A stretch of 17,271 nt of DNA from Flavobacteriales bacterium (GTDB taxonomy: Bacteria; Bacteroidota; Bacteroidia; Flavobacteriales; PHOS-HE28), in contig SSGN01000151.1 in the NCBI GenBank assembly GCA_008016945.1, positions 1 to 17,271 on the forward strand. Direction: 5' to 3'. Shown here one piece after another: positions 6,440-15,199 of the stretch. Within the stretch, counting starts at the first letter, position 1; every line of letters starts with the position of its first letter. Below the pieces are notes generated by a model that had not been told where the DNA came from, made no database searches, and saw only the letters and a program-made list of their open reading frames with translations. The translations under genes were made by a program, and so were the position numbers.

Positions 6440-6510
6440 AACGTTGTGCCCGGCGTTTTCGAGGCCAGGCAACCATTCGCATGCGGATCGCATCATTCCA
6501 ACGGATGACC

Positions 6511-7065
6511 ATGACGGATGAACGGCTGGTGGAAGGCTGCGTGAAGGGGGATCCCGTGGCGCAAAAAGCCCTTTATCAGCAGTACGCCAGGAAGATGATG
6601 AGTATTTGCATGCGTTACGCCAATGACCGGGACCAAGCCCAGGACATCTTGCAGGATGGCTTCGTGAAGGTGTTCCAGAAGATGGACCACTACCGGGGCG
6701 ATGGGCCATTGGGGGGGTGGATCGCTCGCACCATGGTGAATACAGCGTTGGACCACATACGCCGCAATAAACCGTATGATCATAGCCTGGACCTCACCGA
6801 GGCCGAGCACCTGCATCAGGAGGACGAGCATGTGCTCTCCGGAATGAGCACCGATGAGCTGATGGCCCTGATCCAGGCGTTGCCAACGGGCTACCGAACG
6901 GTCTTCAACCTGTTCGCCATCGAGGGCTATGCCCATAAGGATATCGCCGAAATGCTGGGGGTGAGCGAGAACACCTCCAAATCGCAGTTCATGAAAGCGC
7001 GGGCCTACCTGCGTAAGTTGCTGCCCAAGGAAGTGGCGGCCCTATACGGACACGGACATGAGTGA
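6511..7065 (+). CDS. ECF-type RNA polymerase sigma-70 factor
   Basis: This is a 184-residue sigma factor with only regions 2 and 4. Region 2 (about 6-85) contains DQAQDILQDGFVKVFQKM and a GWIARTMVNTALDHIRR helix for core binding and -10 recognition. Region 4 (about 115-170) contains LPTGYRTVFNLFAIEGYAHK and the helix-turn-helix AEMLGVSENTSKSQFMKARA for -35 recognition. The start MTDERLVEGC at 6511 matches how related factors begin; 6505 (two codons longer) and 6481 are alternatives. Its 3' end overlaps the next gene by 8 bases (ATGAGTGA, 7058-7065), which points to coupled translation with a dedicated membrane regulator. Target genes are unknown; the secreted protein gene downstream is an obvious candidate. 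Confidence 0.93.
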   Translation: MTDERLVEGCVKGDPVAQKALYQQYARKMMSICMRYANDRDQAQDILQDGFVKVFQKMDHYRGDGPLGGWIARTMVNTALDHIRRNKPYDHSLDLTEAEHLHQEDEHVLSGMSTDELMALIQALPTGYRTVFNLFAIEGYAHKDIAEMLGVSENTSKSQFMKARAYLRKLLPKEVAALYGHGHE

Positions 7066-8092
7066 TCCTTTGAATACCCTCCTGCAACAGCGGTTCCAGG
7101 GCCACGAGGCTCCGGTGGACCCTCATGTTTGGGAGGGTGTACGACAACAACTCGCCGCCGCCGGTGCGGGGGGCGACGAGGTGAATGAATTGTTCAAGGA
7201 GCGCTTTCAAGGGCACGAGGTTCCGGTGGACCCATCGGCCTGGATGGCGATCAGCGGCCAACTGGGACATGCCGTGGCGGCAGGCTCCGCTTCTGGCTCG
7301 GTGTGGGCATGGGTCGCCGCCGGGGCTACGGCCGTGGCGGTGTCCACGGCGGTATGGTTCGGCGGAGGCTCCGGATCCGCTCCTTCAGGCCCCGTTGTGG
7401 CGGTGACCGAGGTGATGTCGCCCGTTGCCGAACAAGTACGATCCGCAGAGCCGGTCGCTCCAAGCCCCGCCGATCCTGTGGGGAAGGTGGAGCGCACACA
7501 CGAGCATGCCGTAACTCGCTCCGGTGCTGCACGGTGGAACCCTTCCCCGAAGCGGACCGCTCCGGTGGCAATGGTTGATGAACGTATGGAACGGCCGGTT
7601 CCCCAGACCGCCGAGCCGATGGAAGCACCGGTGGAGCAGCATGGCCCTGCCGTGGTGTCGGATATCATCAACGTGCTTGAGGAACAAGTGTGGCATCGAC
7701 CGGTGACCGCAAAGCCGGAGCCCGGGCTTACCACAACACCGCGAAGCGATACGACGGGAGATCGGGTGGTCCATACGCCAGCCTCCACCGAACCCGCTAA
7801 GGAACCCCTAACCCCACTTCCTAAGCTGTTCATGGCCAACACCTTCACTCCCAATGGCGATGGGGTGAACGACACCTATTACGTGGAAGGCGAAGGGTAT
7901 GCCATGATCCTGATGCGGGTCTATTCCATGAAGACCAACGCCTTGGTGTTCAGCACCAACAGTGCTGAACCCTGGACCGGTGAGGGGTGTGAGGATGGCA
8001 TGTACATGGTGGCCATGGAGGCCCATACGGCCGACGGACGCTCCACCACCGAAGGAAAGGTGGTTTGGCTCACCAGGAATCGAATGAACTAA
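7058..8092 (+). CDS. Putative membrane anti-sigma factor with a T9SS-like C-terminal domain
   Basis: 344 residues in three parts. Residues 1-75 are predicted cytoplasmic and hold two copies of a ~27-residue motif (6-32 and 43-69), each with RFQGHE-PVDP-W and a hydrophobic end. One membrane helix follows (about 82-101, WAWVAAGATAVAVSTAVWF) with no cleavable signal peptide. Then comes a ~150-residue Pro/Thr/Glu-rich linker, and from about 254 to the end a domain with ANTFTPNGDGVND, PWTGEGCEDGMYMV and EGKVVWL. This matches the gliding motility/T9SS type B C-terminal domain, except that the usual NRWGxxVF strand is replaced by YSMKTNALVF. The 8-base overlap with the sigma gene and the single membrane helix suggest an anti-sigma factor, although no known anti-sigma (zinc or FecR-like) motif is visible. 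Anti-sigma role and N-in topology are inferred; the domain reading is direct. Confidence 0.8.
   Translation: MSDPLNTLLQQRFQGHEAPVDPHVWEGVRQQLAAAGAGGDEVNELFKERFQGHEVPVDPSAWMAISGQLGHAVAAGSASGSVWAWVAAGATAVAVSTAVWFGGGSGSAPSGPVVAVTEVMSPVAEQVRSAEPVAPSPADPVGKVERTHEHAVTRSGAARWNPSPKRTAPVAMVDERMERPVPQTAEPMEAPVEQHGPAVVSDIINVLEEQVWHRPVTAKPEPGLTTTPRSDTTGDRVVHTPASTEPAKEPLTPLPKLFMANTFTPNGDGVNDTYYVEGEGYAMILMRVYSMKTNALVFSTNSAEPWTGEGCEDGMYMVAMEAHTADGRSTTEGKVVWLTRNRMN
7073..7264 (+). repeat. Tandem duplication within the anti-sigma-like gene
   Basis: Two 81-base coding units (7073-7153 and 7184-7264), offset by 111 bases, encode the two RFQGHE-PVDP-W motifs. Similarity is visible in DNA (GGGCACGAGGTTCCGGTGGA versus the diverged first copy) and clearer in protein. 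This indicates an internal duplication of a short cytoplasmic unit. Confidence 0.7.
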
Positions 8093-8118
8093 GTTGCCGT
8101 ACGTATGGCGATAGCGAC

Positions 8119-8126
8119 TATGTTTG
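8119..8126 (+). promoter_or_regulatory. -7 promoter element upstream of the secreted CUB/PKD protein gene (TATGTTTG)
   Basis: Exact TAnnTTTG match between the anti-sigma-like gene and the cargo gene, with TTG at 8094-8096 and a 22-base spacer, slightly longer than the usual 19-21. It would start transcription near 8133, which argues against the upstream ATG at 8105 as the cargo start. It suggests the cargo can be transcribed apart from the sigma operon. Confidence 0.45.
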
Positions 8127-8185
8127 GACGGATCACACATCAGGTCACGGTCATGACCAAGGCCGGGACATCAGAACCACGCACG

Positions 8186-10729
8186 ATGACGATGAGGACA
8201 ATCGCATTGGCGGCCGTTGCCGCCACAGCCATACAAGCCACCCAGGCCCAATACACCATCATCGATGGTTATGTGGCGGCCTGTTCAGGATCCATCCTCG
8301 ATTCCGGGGGGGAGGGGGCCTCTGGCTATAGCGACAACGAGAACCACACCCTGATCATCTGTCCGGATGGTTCGGGCGGTCCGGGGATCTCCTTGCAGTG
8401 GTTCACCTTCAACTTGTCCACGGCAGGTCCGGAACCCATCGACCAGTTGGCTATCTATGATGGTATGATCGATGGCGTGAACCCGGATCCTCCGTTGATC
8501 GGGGTCTTCACGGGCAACACGCCTCCGGGCATCGTCTCGGCCAGCTTCGAGAACGTGCAGAACACCCTTAACGGCGGAGGATGCCTCACCTTGGTGTTCA
8601 CCAGCAACTCCACCGGTACGGGTACCTTCGCGGCGTTGATCAGCTGCTTCGCCCCGTGCGAGCCGCCTACCGCCTCGGCCACCTTCGGATCCCCGATCCC
8701 GCTACTGGCCTGCCAGGATGAGCCCATCACCTTCGATGGCAGCGCATCCACCGCCGCCGATCCTTTCGAGATCGTGCAGTATACCTGGGATTTCTACGAT
8801 GGACAACAGGATAGCACGACCGGACCAGTGGTGACCCATTCTTATGGTGAAGCCGGGGAGTATGTGGTACAATTGACCGTGACCGATGACAACGGATGTT
8901 CGAACACGAACCTGGTGGACCTCCAGGTGCTGGTCAGCACCACCCCGGACTTCTCCGGAACAGTGGTCGGGCCGCTGGAGATCTGTGAAGGCGAGACCGT
9001 GGATCTGAATGCCGTGGCCACTCCGGTGCTCTGGTCGGCCCTGCCGTCGGTGAACCTGGGCGGTGCGGTGACCATGCCCGATGGTTCGGGTGTGGCGTAC
9101 ACCTCGCAGCTCACCTATACCCAGTTCGCTCCGGGAGCCACCCTCACCAACCCGAACGACCTCACGAGCATCTGCGCCAGCTTGGAGCACAGCTACATGG
9201 GCGACCTGATCATCTCCATCACCTGTCCCACCGGTCAAACCATGACCATGCACCAGCAGGGTGGGGGGGGCACCTATCTCGGTGCGGCCAATGACAGTGA
9301 TCCGGGCAATGCACCCGAGATCGGCGAGTGCTGGGAGTACTGCTGGAGCCCTACGGCCACCCTGGGCACTTTCGCCGATTGTGCCGCCTTCGGGACAACG
9401 CCGAACGTGACGCCGGCAGGCACCCCACAGAGCGATGCCTTGATCGCCGGCACCTATAGCAGCCTGCAACCTTGGTCGAACCTCACCGGTTGTGGTTTGA
9501 ACGGCACGTGGACCTTCCAGGTGATCGATAACTGGGCCATCGATAACGGATTCATCTGCGACTGGGGCCTCAACTTCAACCCTGCACTGTTCCCGAGCCT
9601 CACCCAGTTCACCCCGGTGTTGGGTACCAGTACGGCGGACTCCGCATCGTGGGTCGGGAATGGCCTGGCGTCCGGTACCACCCCCTTGGTAGGTACGGCT
9701 ACTCCGGTGGGCGTAGGAACGCATGACTACACCTTCTCCGTGACGGATAACTTCGGATGCACCTACGACACCACCTTCACCGTGATCGTGAATCCGGGTG
9801 TACCGGGCCCCATCACCATCACCGGGAACAACACCCTCTGCGAAGGGGCCATCGCCTACTTGAACGCACCGGCGGGCTACGATTCGTACACGTGGAGCAA
9901 CGGCGCCGTGGGCCAGCAGATCAGCGCATCGAGCGGCACCCATACGGTGACCGTGGCGCTTGGCGACTGCACCTTGGAGTCGCAGCCTTTCACCATTACA
10001 CCATTGCCAAGCCCGGATCCGCAGATCGTCGGCCCAGGCTTCAGCTGTGGCGGTGCACCGGCTGTCCTCTCCACCACCGAACGGTACAGCAGCTACCAAT
10101 GGTCCAATGGCGCCACATCGCCAACGGTCTCTGTGGGGTCGGGCAGCTATAGCGTAACGGCCACCAATAGCGATGGCTGCTCGGGGGTGTCCGACCTGTT
10201 CACCGTGGTGGTGGGCAGTGCCCCCCAAGCCGCGTTCTCTACCGACCCGCCCTCGCCACAAGGCCAAGGCACCACCGTGGCCTTCACCGATCTGTCCCAA
10301 GGCAATGGCTCCAACATCGTGGAGTGGCTCTGGTCCTTCGGTGAGGCGGGTGCCACCAGCAATGGCCAGTCGGCATCCTACACCTACGACACCCCCGGGA
10401 ACTACCCGGTGTCGCTTACCATCACCAACGCGGATGGCTGCGCACATACGTTCAACGTCTTCTATGTCATCCTGCCCGAAGAGCTCATCTTCCCCAATGT
10501 GTTCACTCCGAATGGCGATGGGCAGAACGAGTACTTCGAGATCCAGAACGGGCAGTATTACGATAACACCTTGTCGGTCTTCAACCGTTGGGGCCAGAAG
10601 GTGTTCGAGACCACCAATTACCGGAATGCGTGGCGCGGGACCGACCTGCCCGAAGGAACGTATTACTACGTCTTCACCACCACGATCGACAAGAAGGAGT
10701 ATACCGGTCATGTGACCATCCTTCGCTGA
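8186..10729 (+). CDS. Large secreted multidomain protein with CUB, PKD and P-like domains and a T9SS type B C-terminal domain
   Basis: About 847 residues. A signal peptide (MTMRTIALAAVAATAIQATQA) fixes the start at 8186, or 8192 two codons later. Then come a CUB-like domain (about 24-154), a PKD domain (about 160-250, YTWDFYDG, THSYGEAGEYVVQLTVTDDNGC), and a proprotein-convertase P-like domain (about 310-464, SLEHSYMGDLIISITCPTG and LNGTWTFQVIDNW). Two Ig-like repeats with YTWSNGA/YQWSNGA follow, then a second PKD domain (about 690-765) and the sorting domain from about 765 (FTPNGDGQNE, FNRWGQKVF, WRGTDLPEGTYYYV). CUB and P domains normally sit beside a protease or bind ligands; no catalytic domain is visible here. 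It should cross the inner membrane by Sec and the outer membrane by the T9SS, as an adhesin or surface scaffold. It may be a target of the upstream sigma factor. Confidence 0.9.
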   Translation: MTMRTIALAAVAATAIQATQAQYTIIDGYVAACSGSILDSGGEGASGYSDNENHTLIICPDGSGGPGISLQWFTFNLSTAGPEPIDQLAIYDGMIDGVNPDPPLIGVFTGNTPPGIVSASFENVQNTLNGGGCLTLVFTSNSTGTGTFAALISCFAPCEPPTASATFGSPIPLLACQDEPITFDGSASTAADPFEIVQYTWDFYDGQQDSTTGPVVTHSYGEAGEYVVQLTVTDDNGCSNTNLVDLQVLVSTTPDFSGTVVGPLEICEGETVDLNAVATPVLWSALPSVNLGGAVTMPDGSGVAYTSQLTYTQFAPGATLTNPNDLTSICASLEHSYMGDLIISITCPTGQTMTMHQQGGGGTYLGAANDSDPGNAPEIGECWEYCWSPTATLGTFADCAAFGTTPNVTPAGTPQSDALIAGTYSSLQPWSNLTGCGLNGTWTFQVIDNWAIDNGFICDWGLNFNPALFPSLTQFTPVLGTSTADSASWVGNGLASGTTPLVGTATPVGVGTHDYTFSVTDNFGCTYDTTFTVIVNPGVPGPITITGNNTLCEGAIAYLNAPAGYDSYTWSNGAVGQQISASSGTHTVTVALGDCTLESQPFTITPLPSPDPQIVGPGFSCGGAPAVLSTTERYSSYQWSNGATSPTVSVGSGSYSVTATNSDGCSGVSDLFTVVVGSAPQAAFSTDPPSPQGQGTTVAFTDLSQGNGSNIVEWLWSFGEAGATSNGQSASYTYDTPGNYPVSLTITNADGCAHTFNVFYVILPEELIFPNVFTPNGDGQNEYFEIQNGQYYDNTLSVFNRWGQKVFETTNYRNAWRGTDLPEGTYYYVFTTTIDKKEYTGHVTILR

Positions 10730-11787: not shown

Positions 11788-12375
11788 CTAACGGGGCAGG
11801 GCCAGCATCCGCTCCACGTACTTCCCCAGCACGTCGAACTCGATGTTCACCCGGTCTCCGGCCTTAAGCCGTTGGAACGTGGTGTGTGCATAGGTGTACG
11901 GGATGATGGCGACCGTGAAGGAGCGTTCATCCAACGCCGCCACCGTGAGGCTTACGCCGTTGATGCACACACTGCCCTTCTCCACCAACAAGTGCTTGGA
12001 TGCGGGGAGTTCAAAGGCGAAGCCCCACGAGCCGTCGCGGTCGTGTACCGCGAGGCAGCGTACCGTGGTGTCCACGTGGCCCTGCACCATGTGCCCGTCC
12101 AGGCGGTCGCCGATCCGCAGGCAGCGTTCCAGGTTCACCACCGTGCCGACCCGCCAGGTTCCGAGGTTCGTCCGATCGAGCGTCTCCTGAACCGCCGTCA
12201 CCTCATAGTGGTCAACGTTCACGGCGGTCACCGTCAAGCATACCCCTTCGTGGGCCACGCTCTGGTCCACCTTCAGCTCATGGGCCAGGGCCGCCTTGAT
12301 CGTGAAGGTGCGGTTCGTACCCTCCTCCTTCACGGCGGTCACCTCGCCCATTCGTTCGATGATCCCGGTGAACAT
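11788..12375 (-). CDS. Riboflavin synthase (alpha subunit type)
   Basis: The enzyme dismutates two 6,7-dimethyl-8-ribityllumazines into riboflavin. The 195-residue protein shows the expected two lumazine-binding repeats. The N-terminal one has MFTGIIE, VAHEGVCLTV and GHMVQGHVDTT. The C-terminal one has LLVEKGSVCINGVSLTV and ends with FDVLGKYVERML. The start at 12375 gives the invariant MFTGIIE, and the sequence upstream in this frame is not riboflavin synthase. The ATG overlaps the stop of the preceding surface-protein gene (TGATG on the minus strand), so translation is probably coupled to it. No FMN riboswitch is apparent in front of the gene, which lies inside the upstream coding region. 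Gene naming (ribC or ribE) varies by species, so no symbol is given. Confidence 0.96.
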   Translation of the reverse strand: MFTGIIERMGEVTAVKEEGTNRTFTIKAALAHELKVDQSVAHEGVCLTVTAVNVDHYEVTAVQETLDRTNLGTWRVGTVVNLERCLRIGDRLDGHMVQGHVDTTVRCLAVHDRDGSWGFAFELPASKHLLVEKGSVCINGVSLTVAALDERSFTVAIIPYTYAHTTFQRLKAGDRVNIEFDVLGKYVERMLALPR

Positions 12376-14993
12376 CAGTGTACGTTGCCTTGCGCTCCAC
12401 TGCCCTGGAGGTGCACATAGCCTTTCAGTTGCATGGGCTGTTCGCCCGCGAGCCGTCGGAGGGTCACCGTGCAGAGGTAGTAGTAGACGCCATCGGGCAG
12501 TGGTACATCGCTGTCCATATAGGTCCCCTTCCAATCGATATCGGGATCGGTGCTGGTGAACACCACCTGGCCCCAGCGGTTGAACACCTCGAGTTCGATG
12601 CGCACCACACCGCGATACGGGAACGGACCGAATCGGTCGTTGCGCCCATCGCCGTTGGGGGTGAAGATGTTCGGCAGTTCATACAACGGGCAGTTGTCGC
12701 CGCAGACGGGTTCCACGAACGCGCTTTCGTTGCCCACGGTATCCACGGCGGTCACTTGGTAGCAGCCGGCCACCGAACTCCCGTTCACATGGGTGAAGCT
12801 CGTGTTCTCCGCGCCATCGATCTCCGCGATCAGGTGGAAGGCGCCTCCCACACTGTCGGCGAAGTGGATGCGGTAGCCTTCGGTGTCATCGGCACACCCC
12901 GTGTTGGGGTTGTTCCAGGTCAGGGTGTTCAGCGGCCGTTCGCAGTCGTTGTCCAGGACAACGGTGGGCGCACAGGGCGGTGTCAGGTCCACGGGAGTGC
13001 CACATACCTCCTGGCTCCAGTTCAGAAGCGGCGAAACGATGGTGGCGTCGCTGTACGCACCGGTGCTCACCACCAGGTAGCAGTATCGCTGCCCGTTCAC
13101 CAGGCCGGTATCCACGAAGCTGTTGGTGGTGCTGGTGCCAACGGAGGTCCAGGTACCGCCGATATCCCGGAACACCTCGTACGAGTTGTTCGTCCACGGG
13201 GTGTTCAGGGTCCAGGAGATGGTGAGCTGTTCGTCGTTCGGCTCTGTGCCGATGAACATCGAGGAGGCCGCATTGCTGCTGCCGATCACATCGGGTCGTG
13301 GTTGGTCCGCACGACCGATCAGTTCCACGCGATACACGTAGGGTCGCGTCTCCGTGTCCAGCCCGGTAGCGATGAAGTTGGTATCCGGGTGGGCGAGGAA
13401 GGGGTGCTCGCCACTGGTCCAGATCAGCTCCGTGGCCGAGGTGAGGCCAGCCCCGCGGTACAGGTTGAAGCGGTAGGGACCCGGCCGTGCGAGGGTGTCC
13501 AGGTCGTAGGCGTTGCTCCACGCCACGGTATCCACGCCTGCGGCCACATCCGTGGTCCCGACGCTCACTTTGGTGATCACGGGCACTTGTCGGTCGAGCA
13601 TGGCGCAGAATTCAACGCTGGCATAGCTCTGGGCACCATCGGGGAACACCGCCACCACCATGTAACAGTAGCTGTTGCCGATCACCAGGTCGTCCGTATC
13701 GTTGTAGCTCGTGTTGCCGACCCCTTCGTTGGTGCCCACATGCACATATCCGGTGTACACCGGAACCCCCAGCTCGCAATGGTCGGGGGTGTACCCGTAA
13801 GCGCCACTCCGGCGGTAGATCAGGTAGCGTACCGCATTGGCGCATGGGCTGGGCTCCCATTGCAGCGCGATGGTGTTACCCACCGGCGTGGCCGTGGGGT
13901 TCTGGGGTGCGGGGCCCACCACCGTCACGTTCATCGTTCGGTAGTCCTGCAGCTGCACGGGCTGTCCATTGTCGGTGGCGTTGAACACCACCATGTATGG
14001 CTGGAGACGCACATGGGCGCAGGCGGTGTTCCAGCTGAATACCCCGTTCACCGGGTTGTTCGGTGATGGTGCGATGAAGCTGGCCGGAGAGGTGCTCAAG
14101 TTGAAGGGCTGGCCAAGGGCCTCGAGCTGTACGGTCTGCGTGCCATTGGGGTCCGACGCCTGCACGTTGATGGAAAGGAATGTTCCGGCAACAACGCAGG
14201 TGTCCTGTGGCTGCGCGATGGTGGGTGGTTGATTGTTGCAGGGCACCACGGTGATCTGCATGTCGCGCATCACATACCCCACCTCGCGCCACACGCCGTT
14301 CACCAGACGCCACTCACGTACGATGAACGCGATGTTGTATTCTCCCGCCAGCGAGGGTGCGATCCAGGTGATGGTGCCGGTGGTGGGGTCCACCGTGTAG
14401 GTGGGGCCGGGGAAGGAGTAGCCCGGTATGGGCAGGCCGTTCAGTCCGAGGCATACCGCCGGTTCGTAGGAGAGACTGTCCCCGTCGGGGTCGAACGCCG
14501 CTGGATTGTGGATCCAAGGTTGGCCCAGGCATGCATCCTGGATGGGAGAGTTCAGGAACCGCGCCGAGCAATTGCCCCCGGTCAGCGGCGTGATCCGGAA
14601 CATCGTGTGTACGCTGAACGATTGGGCGATGGAGTTCGGCACATTGATCACCCCGCCGTTCCGGTTCATGTCATCGATCTGGATCAGGTATTCTCCGGCC
14701 CCGACGTATTCGTGGTCCACGACATATTCGCTGCGCCGGAGATCCTGGGCGGGAAAGTCCTGGATATCGGTCCGGGGGATGGTGTCCCAGATCGGCGAGT
14801 CGCCGTAGTTGATCTCCAGCTCCGGACGGTCCGCGGGGGCGCTGAGCTTGGTATGCGTGATCACCGTGATCCGGTACCAGTTCGTGTTGCCCAGCCTGCA
14901 AACGGTGATCTCGCCCGCGCGGTTGTGTGTGGCCCAAGCCACGGCTTGGGCGCACAAGGCCACCAGCAACAAGAGGGTTCTCTGCCTGAACAT
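12375..14993 (-). CDS. Large secreted surface protein with a T9SS type B C-terminal domain
   Basis: 872 residues. A signal peptide (MFRQRTLLLLVALCAQAVAWA) ends before THNRAGEIT, an N-terminus I recognise from Bacteroidota gliding-associated surface proteins. Residues ~22-270 form this N-terminal region, including PELEINYGD and a cadherin/Ig-like FDPDGDSLSYEP. PPTIAQPQDTCVV starts a second Ig-like unit. The middle has three to four fibronectin III-like repeats (IALQWEPSP, YLIYRRSG, LTISWTLN, YEVFRDIG, NTLTWNNP, YRIHFADS). The sorting domain starts near 770 (NIFTPNGDGRNDRFGPF, EVFNRWGQVVF, WKGTYMDSDVPLPDGVYYY). No enzymatic domain is seen. The start at 14993 fits the signal peptide; the in-frame extension to 15188 is low-complexity and rejected. 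Likely an adhesin or matrix protein. Confidence 0.9.
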   Translation of the reverse strand: MFRQRTLLLLVALCAQAVAWATHNRAGEITVCRLGNTNWYRITVITHTKLSAPADRPELEINYGDSPIWDTIPRTDIQDFPAQDLRRSEYVVDHEYVGAGEYLIQIDDMNRNGGVINVPNSIAQSFSVHTMFRITPLTGGNCSARFLNSPIQDACLGQPWIHNPAAFDPDGDSLSYEPAVCLGLNGLPIPGYSFPGPTYTVDPTTGTITWIAPSLAGEYNIAFIVREWRLVNGVWREVGYVMRDMQITVVPCNNQPPTIAQPQDTCVVAGTFLSINVQASDPNGTQTVQLEALGQPFNLSTSPASFIAPSPNNPVNGVFSWNTACAHVRLQPYMVVFNATDNGQPVQLQDYRTMNVTVVGPAPQNPTATPVGNTIALQWEPSPCANAVRYLIYRRSGAYGYTPDHCELGVPVYTGYVHVGTNEGVGNTSYNDTDDLVIGNSYCYMVVAVFPDGAQSYASVEFCAMLDRQVPVITKVSVGTTDVAAGVDTVAWSNAYDLDTLARPGPYRFNLYRGAGLTSATELIWTSGEHPFLAHPDTNFIATGLDTETRPYVYRVELIGRADQPRPDVIGSSNAASSMFIGTEPNDEQLTISWTLNTPWTNNSYEVFRDIGGTWTSVGTSTTNSFVDTGLVNGQRYCYLVVSTGAYSDATIVSPLLNWSQEVCGTPVDLTPPCAPTVVLDNDCERPLNTLTWNNPNTGCADDTEGYRIHFADSVGGAFHLIAEIDGAENTSFTHVNGSSVAGCYQVTAVDTVGNESAFVEPVCGDNCPLYELPNIFTPNGDGRNDRFGPFPYRGVVRIELEVFNRWGQVVFTSTDPDIDWKGTYMDSDVPLPDGVYYYLCTVTLRRLAGEQPMQLKGYVHLQGSGAQGNVH

Positions 14994-15006
14994 CCGTATG
15001 GTCGTA

Positions 15007-15013
15007 CAAAGTA
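15007..15013 (-). promoter_or_regulatory. Weak promoter-like motif before the second cargo gene (TACTTTG)
   Basis: A shortened version of the -7 consensus (one spacer base missing) about 14 bases before the start codon on the minus strand, in the 206-base divergent gap shared with the aminopeptidase gene. Nothing else, including any small ORF or RNA, was recognised in that gap. Confidence 0.2.
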
Positions 15014-15170
15014 CGGTGATCCACGCCGCGTTACCATCGCCATTGCGTGTTGCAGCACCCCCGTTGCCTGGGTCGTCGGATCGCGACACCTGGCCGAACG
15101 GGGGCCACTCCGCGAGGTCGCCCAGGGCCGAAGATCCACGGCGGCCCCCACGGGCACCATGCACGGCGGT

Positions 15171-15178
15171 TATCTTCG
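15171..15178 (+). promoter_or_regulatory. Possible -7 element of the aminopeptidase gene (TATCTTCG)
   Basis: One mismatch to TAnnTTTG, 22 bases before the aminopeptidase ATG, giving a short leader. No convincing -33 element. Confidence 0.3.
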
Positions 15179-15199
15179 GCCCTTCCATTCGAAGAAGCG

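Follow-up and report, generated by a model that had tools for sequence, protein, structure and literature searches.

A candidate Dma-like anti-sigma factor with a T9SS type B-like sorting domain, encoded between an ECF sigma factor and a T9SS cargo in a Flavobacteriales genome

The 17,271-nucleotide stretch analysed here (the window: contig SSGN01000151.1 of the Flavobacteriales bacterium assembly GCA_008016945.1; all coordinates are window positions) encodes in succession an extracytoplasmic function (ECF) sigma factor, a membrane protein hereafter called the regulator, and a large cargo of the type IX secretion system (T9SS). These genes belong to a conserved, modular system that is a variant of the published dual membrane-spanning anti-sigma (Dma) kind. 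We read the regulator, with about even confidence, as a Dma-like anti-sigma factor in which a T9SS type B sorting domain takes the place of the outer-membrane barrel and which reads the state of the T9SS. The parts of this proposal differ in strength: anti-sigma action is very probable from the gene arrangement and architecture, contact of the C-terminal domain (CTD) with T9SS components may equally well hold or fail, secretion sensing is plausible, and the direction of the response is the weak part. The features concerned are as follows.

6511-7065, + strand: ECF sigma factor, 184 residues from ATG 6511 (Pfam Sigma70_r2/r4_2 over cut-off; start kept in relatives)
7058-8092, + strand: regulator, candidate Dma-like anti-sigma factor with T9SS-type tip, 344 residues (ATG 7058, stop 8092)
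7058-7165, + strand: head repeat 1, residues 1-36, helical hairpin (AlphaFold2 helices 3-13 and 22-36, moderate confidence; alignment)
7166-7273, + strand: head repeat 2, residues 37-72, helical hairpin (AlphaFold2 helices 41-51 and 59-68, moderate confidence; alignment)
7295-7375, + strand: transmembrane segment, approximately residues 80-106 (hydropathy; AlphaFold2 confidence low here)
7376-7813, + strand: Pro-rich tether, residues 107-252 (15% Pro; low identity and low model confidence)
7643-7699, + strand: conserved short helix in the tether, residues 196-214, motif V..II..L (AlphaFold2 helix 196-213; identity 0.40)
7814-8089, + strand: C-terminal CHU_C / T9SS type B-like domain, residues 253-344 (PF13585 match)
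8105-10729, + strand: large T9SS cargo, 874 residues, 3' of the regulator (CHU_C, TIGR04131, PKD_4, P_proprotein)
10487-10720, + strand: type B CTD of the cargo, residues 795-872 (CHU_C and TIGR04131)

The sigma gene starts at ATG 6511 (alternative ATG 6505), stops at 7063-7065 and, as stated in the original prediction, overlaps the membrane-protein gene by 8 bases (7058-7065). Its product scores 63.7 bits for Sigma70_r2 and 55.2 bits for r4_2, each above the Pfam cut-off, and among the 25 NCBIfam matches listed the ECF superfamily model alone exceeds its cut-off. The description of the second gene product as a single-pass protein with a small head, a Pro-rich linker and a T9SS-like C-terminal domain was upheld by hydropathy and by a CHU_C match above cut-off. 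The identification of the next gene as a large T9SS cargo proved equally sound: CHU_C (82.7 bits), PKD_4 (two stretches) and P_proprotein all exceed their Pfam cut-offs, as does TIGR04131 (49.3 bits) in NCBIfam. A signal-peptide-like stretch, judged by eye, places the true cargo start probably at Met28 or Met30 (~8186), so that the gap between regulator and cargo is either 12 or ~90 nt.

No Pfam family matched the regulator head above cut-off. Alignment revealed that residues 1-72 hold one motif in two copies, RFQGHE.PVDP.[VA]W..I..QL, a feature overlooked in the original prediction, and an AlphaFold2 model built on a 70-sequence alignment shows four head helices at moderate confidence, arranged as two successive hairpins. 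Across the 70 sequences each repeat has a mean pairwise identity of 0.61. The number of repeats varies within one regulator family (L and G numbers are working labels for loci and genomes): six relatives (L140, L141, L143, L147, L154 and L157; 394-400 residues where complete) carry three copies, and distant relatives carry a single copy, modelled in the Bacteroidales type as helices 4-9 and 17-30.

By hydropathy the regulator has no signal-peptide-like start at its N-terminus, the first strong hydrophobic stretch beginning at residue 81, behind the hydrophilic head. The main peak (residues 81-99) reaches 1.49 on the Kyte-Doolittle scale with a 19-residue window, the next best being 0.86; it is the second weakest among full-length members of the group of related genomes defined below, and relatives have their main peak at the position matching this segment. 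T9SS cargos are exported by way of a signal peptide; the regulator differs from type B cargos in that a hydrophilic head comes first and the transmembrane segment behind it looks uncleaved. The tether that follows has a predicted local distance difference test (pLDDT) score below 50 across most of residues 101-190, and its conserved helix (7643-7699), in which V200 and I203 are invariant over the 70 rows, stands alone in an otherwise unconserved tether.

The tip is a sandwich of ~90 residues (CHU_C; AlphaFold2), and the regulator reaches 28.9 bits for PF13585 against a cut-off of 27 over residues 259-330. In ending with a CHU_C/TIGR04131-type domain it resembles the type B cargos SprB and PG1035 (PMC9143113). 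CHU_C lies above cut-off in 10/10 further regulators scanned, hence in 11/11 with that of the window, and seven residues (F263, P265, D268, N271, W306, G314 and Y316) do not vary among the 27 rows of the full profile (A3). The CTD is the best-conserved part of the regulator, with an identity of 0.65 over the 70 rows against 0.61 for the head and 0.15-0.17 for the tether outside the 196-214 helix. Its ratio of non-synonymous to synonymous substitution rates (dN/dS) ranges from 0.00 to 0.23 across seven informative pairs, one more pair being nearly identical, and is lower than that of the tether in 5/5 comparable pairs and than that of the head in 5/7, with several dS values close to saturation. 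Low dN/dS together with high identity makes a relic domain unlikely.

Homology searches returned 162 regulator homologues at E<=1e-3; of the best 120, PF13585 is present in 116, and the alignment takes in 97% or more of the query in 118. The contig scan of genomes took in the best 80 of 172 relatives, with one full-length locus (L001), and the group considered here comprises 45 genomes of the same family as the genome of L001, an order-level search having given the same 45. Regulator matches occur in 41 of the 45, in G026 and G006 only as pieces. One genome without a match, G008, shows an element like the sigma promoter described below at a contig end (C242:14-42), and the absence of the regulator there may therefore be an assembly gap. 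Conserved linkage in related genomes, whose lack the original prediction had named as refuting it, was borne out: sigma lies directly 5' of the regulator in 40/40 fetched loci having upstream DNA, with gaps of -26 to +3 (longest open reading frames (ORFs) were used, so overlaps are upper bounds). The order sigma, regulator, cargo(s), metF recurs in the 40 fetched regions and L001. metF is present in 36/41 regions, the other five ending too early, and a divergent lepA lies upstream in 27/41 and is missing in at least 10 that have several kb of upstream DNA. Linkage of regulator and cargo likewise holds in this group, the next gene having a detected CTD in 36/40 loci (L157 being left out of the count); of the remainder, L125, L142 and L147 run off the contig, and L137 has a shorter ORF with cargo-like ORFs beyond.

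The search for sigma genes paired with membrane-anchored, CTD-tipped regulators elsewhere in Bacteroidota, proposed in the original prediction, yielded six further loci in which sigma accompanies a regulator with head, transmembrane segment, tether and CHU_C domain. L020, L023, L032 and L039 were drawn from 79 other loci of the contig scan, and L159 (genome G086) and L160 (G090) from the phylum sample; in the sigma search of the 79 loci, made with a 123-protein query set, scores below ~60 bits are noise, and the four pairs were examined again with sigma as the only query. L160 repeats the gene order of the window, with lepA on the minus strand, sigma, regulator and a large secreted protein. 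A cargo stands next to the pair in L032 and probably in L160. In L024 the sigma gene is 2.8 kb away and on the opposite strand. At E<=1e-3 a search with the L039 type finds 250 relatives, the best 120 of which cover the whole query; for the L023 type, 42 close relatives stand at the top of the list, 41 of them covering at least 99% of the query. With profile A3, 56/296 phylum genomes match, and G001, G086 and G090 are head-starting among the matches listed; at most six candidates were scored per genome, which makes misses likely. L020, L039 and L159 share a similar-looking divergent, exported-looking protein of ~400 residues before sigma (partial in L159), possibly one conserved neighbour.

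The layout of the regulator is that of Dma proteins, which have been reported from Bacteroidota alone and which consist of a head, a transmembrane segment, a disordered tether and a C-terminal barrel, with an ECF sigma gene adjacent (PMC13088901). Dma1 and Dma2 work via their sigma factors, and for Dma2 deletion of sigma abolishes the mutant phenotype (PMC13088901). Like Dma in that account, the window regulator has an adjacent sigma gene, an N-terminal head, one transmembrane helix, a long disordered tether and, as we propose, a C-terminal domain directed towards the outer membrane; unlike Dma, it carries a T9SS CTD in place of a C-terminal outer-membrane beta-barrel, and its group has a tandem or triple head and a linked T9SS cargo gene (PMC13088901). 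The likeness noted here is one of layout and of a head shared with barrel-tipped, sigma-adjacent proteins. Dma sigma factors belong to group ECF21; the window sigma matches the ECF superfamily model. As the decidable Dma features are present except the barrel, we call the regulator Dma-like rather than Dma. The original prediction, which did not take the Dma family into account, was aware of no anti-sigma factor built on a T9SS sorting-type domain: the scaffold has the published Dma layout, and the tip alone is, provisionally, new.

A head-only profile (A4) matched 34/296 phylum genomes at E<=0.01, in 38 places; this search is weak, most E-values lying between 1e-6 and 1e-2, and the L023 type is not represented in the profile. 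An ECF sigma gene adjoins the head in 30/30 inspected of the 38 places (29 by script; L198 by eye, its ORF start being over-extended). At these 30 loci the tips comprise 3 CTDs, 18 barrel-looking and 9 unclassified, the last mostly in proteins of ~250 residues, the barrel and unclassified labels having been assigned from C-terminal sequence and length. Six of the 18 barrel-labelled proteins were scanned against Pfam: OMP_b-brl lies above cut-off in L191, L195 and L209 and under it in two, and one has no match. We entertain, with some hesitation, a broader reading of one Bacteroidota anti-sigma scaffold with exchangeable tips, each a client of an outer-membrane machine for export or assembly, such that sigma would read how free that machine is. 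On the same tentative footing, a barrel would be a client of the β-barrel assembly machinery (BAM) and a type B CTD a client of the T9SS, and the window operon would match cargo synthesis to secretion capacity.

In the CTD tree a single clade (98, starred) unites the 23 regulator CTDs of the group, separate from the cargo CTDs, so that they are not recent copies of the neighbouring cargo; within this group the tip is, as far as the tree indicates, an old CTD lineage. L160, L020, L032 and L039 fall together at 93 and L023 lies among cargos, the tree leaving out L159, whose CTD was missed by the motif used. In the sigma tree L023 lies among barrel-tipped loci. The CTD tip requires three changes on the sigma tree and three on the CTD tree, and the starred branches are compatible with one origin, both being quick trees with long branches.

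A second feature overlooked in the original prediction precedes the sigma gene.

6468-6496, + strand: promoter-like element GGCAAC-N16-GCATCAT before sigma, putative ECF -35/-10 (conservation; function inferred)

GGCAAC-N16-GCATCA is exact before sigma in 38/40 loci including the window, and L130 and L001 are each two bases off GGCAAC-N16-GCATCAT; the counts leave out L156, whose contig begins inside the regulator, and L135, which has no upstream DNA. Within the window 6468-6496 is the sole exact match. Conservation of this element 5' of sigma suggests autoregulation of the sigma-regulator-cargo operon, whose autoregulated ECF promoter we infer it to resemble. The original prediction placed cargo expression under sigma: control of the linked cargo is supported by the element and by the gene order of the group, and the strict form of the claim is weakened by the distant pairs, four of six of which lack an adjacent cargo.

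The related pattern GCAAC-N18-[AG]TC occurs in 5/6 distant CTD-tipped loci (0.01 expected from shuffles), 7/9 unclassified-tip loci (0.02 expected) and 0/18 barrel-tip loci (0.06 expected), with none at spacings 16, 17 and 19 and one at spacing 20. The [AG]TC form was chosen after the distant-locus sequences had been viewed, and the 18-base spacing was fixed by the window group; because the degenerate pattern is post hoc, the spacing is the stronger point. A stricter pattern is found in 2/6 CTD-tipped, 3/9 unclassified and 0/18 barrel-tipped loci. The unclassified loci that share the pattern (L193, L196, L198, L201, L202, L208 and L210) mostly have short tips; three of these seven, and also L217, gave no Pfam match.

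Exact copies of GGCAAC-N16-GCATCAT are present in 44/45 group genomes, with 96 matches against 22 for the reversed pattern. Thirty-seven are the sigma site in fetched loci and two more, on broken contigs of G008 and G028, are sigma-like, leaving ~57 further matches, which exceed the reversed-pattern control. Among the 30 pattern loci given, 17 are of the sigma type, and 12 of the 13 others have a frame of at least 150 codons open in the GGC-AAC register and look coding, long open frames being common in GC-rich DNA. With one mismatch allowed, six genomes give at least 255 matches against 92 for the control. No wider regulon is readable from the exact or one-mismatch matches, which leave one possible.

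We propose that the tandem hairpin head would hold the co-encoded ECF sigma in the cytoplasm and that the single transmembrane helix would anchor the regulator in the inner membrane. The Pro-rich tether of ~145 residues, in principle long enough to span the periplasm, would bring the CTD within reach of outer-membrane receptors for such domains, either the SprA translocon or proteins like PorP/SprF. PorP-like barrels, to which type B CTDs bind (PMC9143113), are the first receptor candidates. Where receptors are free, the CTD would dock, the head would be altered and sigma would be released; sigma would then transcribe its own operon from GGCAAC-N16-GCATCAT, yielding more regulator and linked cargo, and cargo CTDs would in turn occupy the receptors and close the switch. 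Because the operon makes a cargo, a free receptor turning sigma on and a filled one turning it off would be the sensible direction.

Several observations weigh against secretion sensing, and some of them favour an unlikely though serious alternative, in which the CHU_C-like domain is a reused immunoglobulin (Ig)-like sandwich responding to envelope stress or to a ligand in the periplasm, without relation to the T9SS, making the regulator an ordinary anti-sigma factor with a new sensor. The window regulator reaches just 19.8 bits for TIGR04131 against a cut-off of 35, a failure beside its CHU_C match that marks the window copy as a diverged domain; seven of the ten relatives scanned are likewise below. 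In the window clade the CTD has a shortened loop, the canonical one being lost, and a C-terminal extension. Structure matches to the CTD (Foldseek/VIA; rows spanning residues 252-342, the CTD region) include many generic Ig, FN3 and PKD folds at similar Z, and the top match, at Z 8.4, is an unrelated enzyme. PKD domains stand 5' of the CTD in the regulators of L032 and L160, and four of the six distant pairs (L020, L023, L039 and L159) have no adjacent CTD cargo. Against such a sensor stand CHU_C above cut-off in all 11 regulators scanned, TIGR04131 above cut-off in 3/10 further regulators, the seven residues from F263 to Y316 invariant in the A3 rows, and the T9SS cargo co-encoded in the window group.

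Other points tell against secretion sensing in their own right. Constraint on the CTD is not uniformly the stronger: dN/dS for the window and L124 is 0.23 in the CTD against 0.15 in the head, and for L142 and L149 the CTD value of 0.21 lies above that of the head. The window showed no evident PorP-like gene, although no search aimed at such genes was made. The predicted association with T9SS presence was found in form, with SprA in 45/45 group genomes and 6/6 other genomes with the architecture, and carries little power, since SprA is also present in 228/296 sampled phylum genomes and the comparison barely discriminates. On the sprA strand, 19/20 genomes gave no match to the element upstream of sprA, which leaves sigma control of this T9SS core gene unsupported; the sole upstream match, in L251, lies ~500 nt away and looks coding-like by eye, with 0.08 expected over the 20 genomes.

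It is improbable that the regulator is instead cut in the periplasm so that its CTD part exits through the T9SS, loss of the tip rather than docking triggering breakdown of the anti-sigma factor. Such a route would suit a CTD that forms the very end of the protein and follows a long tether for the most part without structure, and a surface CTD protein feeds an ECF-sigma pathway in another species (PMC7712824), but the tether sequence is poorly conserved save for one helix. Still less probable is a membrane protein that is a passive or positive partner, such as a cargo scaffold, merely co-transcribed with sigma: its head does lack a Pfam match, yet that head is common to many sigma-adjacent proteins whose shared parts are head and transmembrane segment, and Dma1 and Dma2, which share this layout, exert their effect by way of sigma (PMC13088901).

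Among known systems, PorA of Porphyromonas gingivalis is a CTD-bearing protein that affects, via PorXY, the ECF sigma factor SigP, which serves the T9SS (PMC7712824), and the window system resembles it in tying a CTD-bearing protein to an ECF sigma. PorA is a surface protein with a lectin-like domain that acts through a two-component system, and is described there with a signal peptide, an Ig-like domain and a CTD and with no anti-sigma head or transmembrane segment, whereas the window regulator has head, transmembrane segment and tether (PMC7712824). The SM6 ECF promoters of Flavobacterium psychrophilum belong to an ECF sigma/anti-sigma pair tied to T9SS expression, and this pair in a flavobacterium resembles that of the window; a difference is that its regulon includes T9SS core genes such as GldN and PorU (PMC9723704). 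No anti-sigma factor with a T9SS sorting domain was found in the open-access literature, a provisional result, most subscription papers lying outside its scope. T9SS control as described in the cited papers runs through PorXY-SigP (PMC7712824).

If the proposal is true, one protein spanning from a cytoplasmic sigma factor to a periplasmic T9SS address tag would link cargo supply directly to secretion, and a cell might read the state of its T9SS to set the amount of cargo. The Dma family would also pass from a barrel-only class to a modular one with exchangeable tips.

Elsewhere in the window, a second T9SS type B cargo is encoded at 12375-15188 on the minus strand (CHU_C 62.5 bits, TIGR04131 43.9 bits) and recurs beside ribE in several relatives whose region extends that far.

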